Source: Desertimonas flava
GTDB taxonomy: Bacteria > Actinomycetota > Acidimicrobiia > Acidimicrobiales > Ilumatobacteraceae
Direction of reading: 5' to 3'
Assembly: GCF_003426815.1 (NCBI RefSeq)
Contig: NZ_QKYK01000007.1
Coordinates: 1 to 64,000, forward strand
DNA length: 64,000 nucleotides
Of the stretch, positions 60,734 through 64,000 are shown one piece after another; the stretch's first letter is position 1; each line of letters starts with the position of its first letter. The notes beneath the pieces are model-generated. The model was not told the origin of the DNA and did no database searches. It saw only the letters and a program-made list of their open reading frames with translations. Both the position numbers and the translations under genes were made by a program.

Positions 60734-62434
60734 ATGACGGTGCACGACGATCCTTCAGATGGTGCGACGACCGAGGTCGCGGCGATCTGCGACGCTCTGC
60801 AGGCCAACCCGCTCTTCCACCTATCGCTCAACTCGAAGGAACTGTTCCACTCGAACCTGCTCGCCTGGCTGTTCGAGACTCACCCCGCAGCGGCCGCGGA
60901 GGCTCTGGCCGGGCTGGTGCCGGCCGGCCCGGTGACCGAGCCACGAGTGCAACGTGAGAAGAACCACCTCGACCTCGCCGTCGAACTCCCCGGTCGCGCT
61001 CCGTTCGTCATCGAGAACAAGGTGTTCTCCCCACCTGACGAAGAGCAACTCGACAGGTACACCTCGGGCGCCCTCGCGGGGCTCGTCGACCCGACGCTCA
61101 TCCTGCTGAGCCTCGGCTCTCCGGACTGGCCAAGTGGCACGCACACAACCCGCGGCGACGATCCTCACGAGTGGAAGTTCGTCTCGTATCTCGACCTCGC
61201 CGGTGCCCTGGCGCGAGTCCCACACGCGATCGGCGGTTTCGATGGCGAGCTCGTTCGCTACTACGTGACGTTCATTCGAGACCTGCACCGTCTCGCGTCG
61301 ACCGTCGGTGAGGTGTCCGGCGACGAGCCGGTCGCGCTGTACGGCGAGTCCGGCCGCCTTCTCCGTTCGATCCGCATGCACGATGCGATCAGCAAGCTCC
61401 GAGCCCGATCAGCGATCGCCTCTGCCCGTGCGCACAGCCGCGCCCTGCTGGGCGATCTCCCGATCAGGTGGGAGGCCCTCTACACGAACGCTGCGCCGTT
61501 GAACGCTGCGTTCCTCGACAAGGGCGATGGCGATTGGCTCGGCTGGCAGTACCAGGGCGGGCAATGGCGCGTCGTCGTGATCACCAATCGCTTCTACGGC
61601 ACCGATCCGGACGATCGAGCGAGTCGCCACGCGTACGTCGCCGACCGCTATGCGAAGTGGTTCGACTTCGAGCCGCTTCTCGAACTCACCGGTCGGCCGA
61701 TCGATGACGTTCCGAGGACCGAAGCCGAGGGCGAATATCTCGGCTACAACCCCGACTTCGTGTACCGCTACCGCCAGGCCCACGATCTGACGCTCAACGA
61801 GTTGACGGCACTCTCCCACCACTACCTCGTCGCTGCGGCGCGGTGGGAGCTCCCGACGGACTCCGACAGACCAGCGCATGTCATTGGAACGGTCGGCGCC
61901 ACGCCACAGTCGCCCGAGGCCGACAAACCTCGGGACGGACAGCCTGCGACTGATGTCGACGCCGCCCTGGCGCAGTGGGGCGGCTACGACGGGTTCACCG
62001 AGGGGCGTGCCCTGACGCATCGTGTAATCGAGCTGCTGGAGTCCCATCTCGGGCCACTGACCGAGTGCTGGGTCCCGCCGTCGTCGGCCTACGTCGGCTT
62101 CCGGTTCGAACGGTTGAGGTCGATGGCAATGGCCGCCAACTGGGGCTACCTGTGGATCACGAACCCAGCGGTGGAGCTGATGCGAAGTGACGGGCTGGAC
62201 CCGCTGGAGGTCTTCCAGGAGGCGCGGCTGCCGACGGACCCCACCTGGAACGACGGCCTCAGCGTCTGGACGACGCGAGGACTTCGCGATCGGACCGCTC
62301 GGCAGCGGAACCCACGCCCGGCCGGCCGGAAGTGCGGCGACCCAGCCTGCATGGGTGCTCACATCCCGCAGCCGACCGAGGAGTGCGAATACTGCGGTGG
62401 AGCCCTCCAGGATGCCGACGACGACCGCTCGTGA
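60734..62434 (+). CDS. PD-(D/E)XK nuclease superfamily protein with C-terminal zinc ribbon
   Basis: A 566-residue protein. Residues about 30-170 match the PD-(D/E)XK_4 layout: FHSNLLAWLFE, then KNHLDLAVELPG (Asp) and PFVIENKVFSPPDEEQLDRY (ExK with downstream Gln). The middle and C-terminal regions are not recognised, and the end has a CGDPAC...CEYC zinc-ribbon-like knuckle. Such proteins are common in defence islands. Base composition here is less GC-extreme than in the metabolic clusters, consistent with transfer. Confidence 0.72.
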   Translation: MTVHDDPSDGATTEVAAICDALQANPLFHLSLNSKELFHSNLLAWLFETHPAAAAEALAGLVPAGPVTEPRVQREKNHLDLAVELPGRAPFVIENKVFSPPDEEQLDRYTSGALAGLVDPTLILLSLGSPDWPSGTHTTRGDDPHEWKFVSYLDLAGALARVPHAIGGFDGELVRYYVTFIRDLHRLASTVGEVSGDEPVALYGESGRLLRSIRMHDAISKLRARSAIASARAHSRALLGDLPIRWEALYTNAAPLNAAFLDKGDGDWLGWQYQGGQWRVVVITNRFYGTDPDDRASRHAYVADRYAKWFDFEPLLELTGRPIDDVPRTEAEGEYLGYNPDFVYRYRQAHDLTLNELTALSHHYLVAAARWELPTDSDRPAHVIGTVGATPQSPEADKPRDGQPATDVDAALAQWGGYDGFTEGRALTHRVIELLESHLGPLTECWVPPSSAYVGFRFERLRSMAMAANWGYLWITNPAVELMRSDGLDPLEVFQEARLPTDPTWNDGLSVWTTRGLRDRTARQRNPRPAGRKCGDPACMGAHIPQPTEECEYCGGALQDADDDRS

Positions 62435-62675
62435 CATCCGCTCAGACAGGGATCACGACATCAGACCGCTCGGTTGCTGACACGTGCCGTGTACCACCGG
62501 TCACACTCTGCGACCTCGGCCGGACTCCCGGCCCGTGGTGAACGGGCCTGAGGGCAATCCCCGGAGCCGATGACGGCCGGCATGACGGCCGAGGGCCTCC
62601 AGCCCGCCACCTCGACATCGATGACGAACTTCCTCACAGGCCCCATCACGATGTGCGACGGAGGAAGGTGCCGTC
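62435..62675. other. Intergenic region before the AbiU2-like gene
   Basis: No gene is supported. A short inverted repeat GGCCGGCATGACGGCCG-like element lies near 62575-62592, and GACGGAGGAAGG precedes the next start as a ribosome site. No promoter consensus is clear. Confidence 0.35.
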
Positions 62676-63320
62676 ATGCGAGTTGAGAAGTGGAAGCGAT
62701 GGCTGAGGGAAATCGAGTTGGACGTAATCGCGCTGCATCACGATCGGGTGCTGTGGCGTACGCTCGACGCCGCACTGAGCCGTCGCGACGAGTCAGAGTT
62801 CTTCCGCCGCCACTACATGCGGCTCTACGTGGCGTCGGCCGCGATGTGCGTACGCCGTCTGGTCTTCTCAGGCACCGACTCGAAGTCGATCTCGCTCGTG
62901 CGCCTACTCCGCGAGCTTGCAGATGATCCCGGCCACCTCACTGCCGCCCGCCACCGCCAGCTGTTCGAGGATGTCGCGATGGGGCCCGACTACGGCGAGA
63001 AGCGCTTCGAGGCCGAATGGGGTGACGGCCACGGGCATCTCGCTGTCGACCGAGTCGAGTCGGATCTCGCGTCCCTCGAACGCCTGGCCGAGGCTGTAAA
63101 GCTGGTCGCCGACCGCACGATCGCTCACCTCGATCGACGCGGCATCGGCGACGAACGGCCCACGTTCGCCCAGCTCGACGCGGCCATCGACGAGATCGGC
63201 CGGATCTTCGTCAAGTACCACGAGCTCATCGACGGGTCATCGATCGTCCACTTGGAGCCAGTCGTGCAGGGCGACTGGAAGGCACCGTTCCGGGCGGCAG
63301 TCTTCGGTGCGGACGAGTGA
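62676..63320 (+). CDS. AbiU2-like (HEPN-type) protein
   Basis: A 214-residue, almost wholly helical protein. RRHYMRLYVASAAMCVRRLVF and SISLVRLLRELADDP resemble the AbiU2/HEPN-like family found in phage-resistance loci. KLVADRTIAHLDRRG carries an R-x4-H-like element that could be a HEPN ribonuclease site (R-T-I-A-H). GGAGGAAGG precedes the ATG. The assignment rests on pattern recognition and is moderate. Confidence 0.55.
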   Translation: MRVEKWKRWLREIELDVIALHHDRVLWRTLDAALSRRDESEFFRRHYMRLYVASAAMCVRRLVFSGTDSKSISLVRLLRELADDPGHLTAARHRQLFEDVAMGPDYGEKRFEAEWGDGHGHLAVDRVESDLASLERLAEAVKLVADRTIAHLDRRGIGDERPTFAQLDAAIDEIGRIFVKYHELIDGSSIVHLEPVVQGDWKAPFRAAVFGADE

Positions 63321-63401
63321 CGGGCCGCGTTGACGGTTGCGCTGCCGATCCGCCCTACAGTGGCGTCGTCGTGAGCGGTCGAGAGCTGGTGGGCTGAGGG
63401 A

Positions 63402-64000
63402 GTGGAACCTCCGTTGTGGAGCGAAGGGGCGTCGCCGTGGCCGCACGAGCGCGAGGCGTTGGCGTTCGTTCGCACGCGACTGCCCGACTTCGAACCGTAT
63501 CGGGCGTGGTCCAACGTCGAGTTCATCGCCGAGGACGGCAGTGTCAACGAGGTCGACCTGCTGGCGATCACCCCACGTGGCTTCCTCCTCGTCGAGATCA
63601 AGTCGTTCCCCGGCGTGCTCACGGGCGACGGCCAACGTTGGCGTCACCGCTGGCCAGACGGGGGGGAACGATTCCTCGATCACCCGCTGATCCTGGCCAA
63701 CACGAAGGCGAAGCGGCTGAAGTCGCTGCTCTCCCGACAGCGGCCGTTCGCCAAGGAACGCGTCCCGTTCGTAACGGCGCTCGTGTTCCTGTCGTCGGCT
63801 GACCTCGAGTGCAACCTCCACAACGTCGGCCGGACGGGCGTCGCCGTGCGCGACGCCGACCCGGGCGCGCCGCCTCCTGTCGATCGGGGGTTTGGCGTCT
63901 TGCCTGGCATCATCCAGGCGCTCAAGGATCCGTCGGCCGCCGGGCTTCGGGCTGGCGCGATCAACAAGCCGATGTCCAAGCGGATCGCTGAGGCCATCGA
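63402..64000 (+). CDS. NERD-domain protein, probable PglW-like kinase (3' end beyond window)
   Basis: At least 199 residues, open to the window end. It begins MEPPLWSEGASPWPHEREAL and continues with RAWSNVEFIAEDGSVNEVDL and GFLLVEIKSFPG, the conserved aspartate and ExK of a NERD nuclease-like domain, then LILANTKAKRLKSLL. This N-terminus is the arrangement of PglW, the NERD plus serine/threonine kinase of BREX type 2 (Pgl) phage-defence systems. The kinase part would lie outside the window. GTG 63402 follows a weak purine-rich site (CTGAGGGA). Confidence 0.65.
   Translation, partial: MEPPLWSEGASPWPHEREALAFVRTRLPDFEPYRAWSNVEFIAEDGSVNEVDLLAITPRGFLLVEIKSFPGVLTGDGQRWRHRWPDGGERFLDHPLILANTKAKRLKSLLSRQRPFAKERVPFVTALVFLSSADLECNLHNVGRTGVAVRDADPGAPPPVDRGFGVLPGIIQALKDPSAAGLRAGAINKPMSKRIAEAI

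Follow-up and report, generated by a model that had tools for sequence, protein, structure and literature searches.

The right edge of the analyzed stretch, a window of 64,000 nucleotides (bases 1-64000 of contig C67, which has 232,953 bases), holds the beginning of what is predicted, with a probability of about 0.9, to be a BREX type 2 (Pgl) locus that is complete: pglW, pglX, pglY, pglZ, brxD and brxHI follow each other on a single strand, in the customary order. The core spans C67:63402-82235 and most of the locus lies to the right of the window, whose end falls inside pglW after the first 599 bp of this gene (63402-64000). The source assembly, a 6.2-Mb draft of 73 contigs, has a listed completeness of 96.62% and a listed contamination of 3.05%. 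All six core frames are full length and open, start and stop codons overlap at the pglW-pglX, pglY-pglZ, pglZ-brxD and brxD-brxHI junctions, and gene order and strand match those of the other BREX-2 loci compared (Table 1). The original prediction had placed three proteins in one direction at the window's edge, the last of them with a NERD N-terminus resembling PglW, and had pointed to the right of the window for a kinase domain and further Pgl genes. All three proteins are where it put them, on the + strand; the NERD frame continues to 67700 as a PglW, two kinase regions follow the NERD domain in the same protein, and the five other core genes come next.

Table 1. Genes of the BREX type 2 locus and its accessory genes on contig C67.
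Feature	Coordinates	Strand	Remarks
PD-(D/E)XK (PDDEXK_4) protein, accessory	60734-62434	+	566 aa; Pfam PF14281
AbiU2-type HEPN protein, accessory	62676-63320	+	214 aa; Pfam PF18734
pglW	63402-67700	+	1432 aa; NERD, apparent pseudokinase, kinase, long C-terminal half
pglX	67697-71215	+	
ATPase, accessory	71309-72472	+	387 aa
pglY	72469-76155	+	
pglZ	76145-78781	+	
brxD	78778-80097	+	
brxHI	80094-82235	+	

The Pfam matches of the three window proteins exceed the curated cut-offs and are therefore more than chance. The NERD domain of PglW (frame 63402-63998) was matched with an E value of 6.6e-17 (62.5 bits, cut-off 22.1) and the full-length protein with 1356.7 bits by NCBIfam NF033442 (cut-off 990), which gives the NERD and kinase composition required of BREX type 2. 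The kinase stretches that follow the NERD domain were matched by the Pfam models Pkinase and PK_Tyr_Ser-Thr. The second kinase carries HRDIKPDN and DFS, found by pattern search, while in the first region HRLLTARS was read by eye at the expected position of HRD, so that this region looks like a pseudokinase. The same make-up, a NERD domain with a pseudokinase and an active kinase, has been described for the PglW of type-2 BREX (PMC12839542). The fact that some DndF proteins share this arrangement (PMC12839542), and that the MAD6 model of MADS also matches our PglW (247.9 bits, under the cut-off of 460), could suggest that the locus is only related to BREX type 2, perhaps as a Dnd or MADS type system with a NERD-kinase protein. 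This is hardly credible for a locus with a full-length PglW over its cut-off, PglX and PglZ of the BREX-2 type, BrxD and BrxHI, and with no Dnd or DUF499 family among the matches listed (the best 25 families for four of the long lists).

The remaining core proteins argue for a complete BREX type 2 locus as well. PglX, BrxC-PglY, PglZ and BrxHI were all recognized by PADLOC with E values of 1e-200 or better. PglX is of the BREX-2 type (NCBIfam NF033451, 1619 bits against a cut-off of 400) and has the NPPY motif by pattern, and PglZ is of the BREX-2 kind (NF033446, 677 bits against 200), the motif pattern used for PglZ being too loose to discriminate. PglY was assigned as the PglY/BrxC ATPase by its PADLOC match (E 0); its best NCBIfam model, NF047891, scored 924 bits, under the cut-off of 1700, and the search pattern for Walker A matched nothing in it, with ASFGAGKS visible by eye in the translation. 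The two genes that complete the BREX type 2 set are BrxD (PADLOC E 9.5e-188; Pfam BrxC_BrxD E 4.8e-136; Walker A by pattern) and BrxHI (PADLOC E 1.3e-283; DEAH by pattern). It is quite improbable that the locus is decaying and non-functional: decay does occur in the family, as three plasmid BREX-2 loci are broken (L141, L142 and L143, in which pglW or pglX is annotated as separate pieces or all that is left is a NERD remnant accompanied by transposases), but in this locus none of the six core frames is interrupted or shortened, and the specifically tested motifs are present, except for the PglY pattern.

Owing to its kinase domains the PglW model matched, at E 0.001, 395 out of 396 genomes drawn from the phylum, and only nine, this genome included, were over the cut-off; among the ten other family members in the same draw one (G011) was. 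A scan of the genome collection with a PglW alignment, in which both search patterns fell in the kinase domain, gave at least 80 loci; of the 80 listed, four are PglW by coverage (L057-L060, L060 being a fragment), each adjoining pglX. The locus provides a complete BREX-2 from a lineage in which few genomes carry a true PglW (9/396), and our literature search found no paper that combines BREX and Acidimicrobiia. Two of its accessory genes are also of note, namely the AbiU2-type HEPN protein lacking the motif arginine and the ATPase, which is matched by general AAA models but by no named family.

The first of the two proteins upstream of pglW was called a PD-(D/E)XK protein with a zinc ribbon in the original prediction. 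The putative nuclease part of this call is supported by the PDDEXK_4 match (E 5.6e-7, 30.1 bits, cut-off 22.3) together with an ExK motif at E94/K96, as well as by a match of residues 71-158 to the PADLOC candidate family PDC-S26 (E 6.3e-10). The ribbon is less certain: a C-terminal CX4C...CX2C zinc-ribbon-like stretch is visible in the translation, but it has no family model and did not show in an alignment with two distant relatives. A single-sequence AlphaFold model of the protein had a pLDDT of 36. Relatives are rare, occurring in two of the 396 phylum genomes (own included; the other, G297, is a frame-broken copy), in one of the 61 genomes of another draw, made among relatives (own only) and in three of 72,556 plasmid records, with 25-28% identity. 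The distant relative in G297 (L051) adjoins an apparent DUF262 gene, read by eye, and another distant relative (L137) lies on a Pimelobacter plasmid.

For the second protein, the call of an AbiU2/HEPN-like protein was borne out by a nearly whole-length match to HEPN_AbiU2 over the cut-off (E 5.2e-7, 29.8 bits against 26.8). The Pfam model itself matched six of 296 genomes, five of them over the cut-off. AbiU2 is listed as conserving the Rx4-6H motif (PMC3710099). The window protein is like this family in keeping the motif histidine, present in all eight HEPN proteins compared (the window protein and seven relatives), and unlike it in the arginine, which is replaced by alanine; the only Rx4-6H string in the protein, at residue 176, lies elsewhere, so the catalytic motif itself is missing. 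The arginine is present in L150, L151 and L153 (the latter two read by eye) and is likewise absent in four relatives, G061, G182, the one on the Streptomyces plasmid NZ_CP108735.1 and L155 (in G070, by eye). Judged by sequence, the window HEPN belongs to a small clade in which the motif histidine is retained and the Rx4-6H arginine is absent. Its five members also have in common a double arginine nearer to the N-terminus, and either this replaces the missing arginine or the clade may be non-catalytic; a substitution for the missing arginine was suggested for another HEPN family (PMC3710099). The single-sequence AlphaFold model had a pLDDT of 40. Relatives were found in five of the 396 phylum genomes, own included and two at E 9e-4 only, and in one plasmid record, with none in the phage collection; nor were there relatives of this or of the PD-(D/E)XK protein in a viral contig collection, in a scan sensitive to close relatives only. 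The relative in G061 is situated within about 5 kb of apparent PaeR7I-like endonuclease and ImmA-like peptidase genes (by eye). Those of G070 and G182 sit among other genes, so these proteins are not generally found in a defence setting.

It was also proposed that these two proteins could be accessory or new defence genes, which is only partly supported. Both do match families known from defence, but relatives of neither were detected beside 16 other BREX-2 loci, for each of which the sequence covered extended 4.9 kb or more upstream of pglW (11 loci at E 1e-4 on both strands, all 16 by + strand matches of more than 50 bits; the check covered relatives of these two proteins). The pair therefore looks like local cargo. 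These 16 loci comprise eight from genomes, three from named genome records (L057, L058, L059) and five on plasmids; left out of the counts were G417 (a 3.4-kb contig), the fragments or remnants G205/L056, L060 and L143, and the Rhodococcus plasmid hits H11 and H12, which are NERD matches of 30% identity. Since the ATPase was likewise not found in these loci, it is by position that the upstream genes and the ATPase are linked to BREX. Except for the window's own, no genome among the 396 was in the lists of both PD-(D/E)XK and HEPN relatives, so a conserved pairing of the two is unsupported. This rarity and separation, the lack of relatives beside other BREX-2 loci and a gap of 241 bp between the two genes would fit separate standalone defence or toxin unit(s), functionally unrelated to BREX and sharing the island with it. 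On the other hand, the HEPN gene shares the strand of pglW and stops 81 bp short of it, which permits co-transcription, and standalone PD-(D/E)XK and HEPN genes next to BREX cores have been reported as a recurring pattern, with auxiliary nucleases already published (PMC12839542). We consider the odds evenly poised between unrelated units and genes with some part in BREX. In the latter case the two genes, acquired locally, would possibly be auxiliary nucleases, the HEPN having a non-standard active site.

The third accessory gene, beyond the window and so out of reach of the original prediction, is embedded in the core, between pglX and pglY. More than 250 bp of extra DNA was present at this junction in 12 of the 17 BREX-2 loci, the window included (the window, ten further loci by measurement, and L058, whose remaining 6.2 kb do not reach pglY), compared with 5/17 at pglW-pglX, 0/15 at pglY-pglZ where both genes were seen and 1/12 at pglZ-brxD, in a small mixed sample that includes L141 and L142 with their broken genes and ignores kinship. 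It is known that in Streptomyces coelicolor pglWX and pglYZ form two operons, 6 kb apart (PMC4365076). Together, the loci counted and this operon split indicate that the insertion has occurred at the customary place and point to the pglX-pglY junction as a favored site for BREX-2 cargo.

General AAA models of Pfam match the 387-aa ATPase, with no family match in PADLOC and NCBIfam. Its relatives were found in 15 of 198 phylum genomes at E 1e-30 (own included); at E 1e-5 the counts were 113 among 72,556 plasmid records and one among 50,697 phage records. Ten plasmid loci were examined, and in all eight that are annotated the downstream gene is on the opposite strand, so in those loci the ATPase stands alone. 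One relative comes from a stretch of a Vibrio plasmid that also holds DUF3265 and DUF3709 genes; these we take to be integron-cassette markers. The ATPase that lies between pglW and pglX in a Polaromonas locus was considered as a further relative and rejected, as no relationship was detectable. The gene here would be a mobile, probably self-regulating one that landed in a junction where BREX-2 loci often carry cargo.

Upstream of the ATPase there is a palindrome, CTTATC-N8-GATAAG, whose end is 29 bases from the start of the gene. The pattern CTTATC-N4-12-GATAAG has one site in the 6.2-Mb genome and none for the reversed control, a difference that is weak by itself. When the 90 bases before the start were shuffled, 10 of 60 shuffles reached the score of the window's palindrome, which is therefore not exceptional, but at the corresponding position the three best relatives from the phylum draw carry inverted repeats that are related to it and stronger (0, 1 and 0 of 60 shuffles). 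For the 21 upstream regions shuffled in all, at most three of 60 shuffles were as good in seven and at least 18 of 60 in eight. There is thus modest support for the 387-aa ATPase probably controlling its own promoter. In contrast to the eight plasmid loci it is co-directional with the gene that follows, its end overlapping the start of pglY by 4 bp, and for this reason its promoter may serve pglYZ-brxD-brxHI as well, which the ATPase may drive. The broadest reading of these observations would have the ATPase act as a switch that regulates itself and has taken over the second half of the BREX operon, placing pglYZ-brxD-brxHI under its palindrome promoter and making, together with the HEPN lacking its arginine, an inducible two-layer BREX-2. 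This is speculative and in our opinion rather unlikely; if true, restriction could be turned on independently of PglWX.

To the right of brxHI (83327-83968) lies a protein of 213 aa whose Pfam match to CHAT is weak and under the cut-off (E 0.27); it has the strings HITAHG and LADCC, which resemble a caspase-type His-Cys pair. It had no PADLOC match and is possibly a further defence gene. A sequence search of the PDB with this protein, the PD-(D/E)XK, the HEPN and the ATPase returned nothing better than E 0.26.

By analogy with their families, PglW would sense the invader via its C-terminal half and signal via its kinase, PglX would methylate adenines, PglY and BrxD would act as ATPases and BrxHI as a helicase, and restriction would be performed by PglZ, possibly also by the NERD domain. 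In S. coelicolor the kinase activity of PglW and the ATPase activity of PglY are both required (PMC4365076). The locus has the same four Pgl genes as that system, with pglWX and pglYZ likewise separated, although here the separation consists of one ATPase gene. The S. coelicolor pglX is subject to a phase switch by a G-tract (PMC4365076); G or C runs of at least seven within 60.7-82.3 kb are only two, at C67:63660 (in pglW) and 76130 (in pglY), and with none in pglX such a switch is not evident here. In a survey of 1309 taxa, type-2 BREX is described as adding PglW, BrxHI and BrxD to a core of BrxC, PglX and PglZ (PMC12839542). That survey does not, as far as we found, name this arrangement of HEPN_AbiU2 and PDDEXK_4 or this ATPase, but it already describes standalone genes of the PD-(D/E)XK and HEPN kinds beside BREX, and the extra genes here fit this known pattern. 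With the same six-gene set and the same PglW architecture as the surveyed systems, this is very probably a locus of a known kind, BREX type 2, with three uncommon accessories that may be its helpers or its hitch-hikers.
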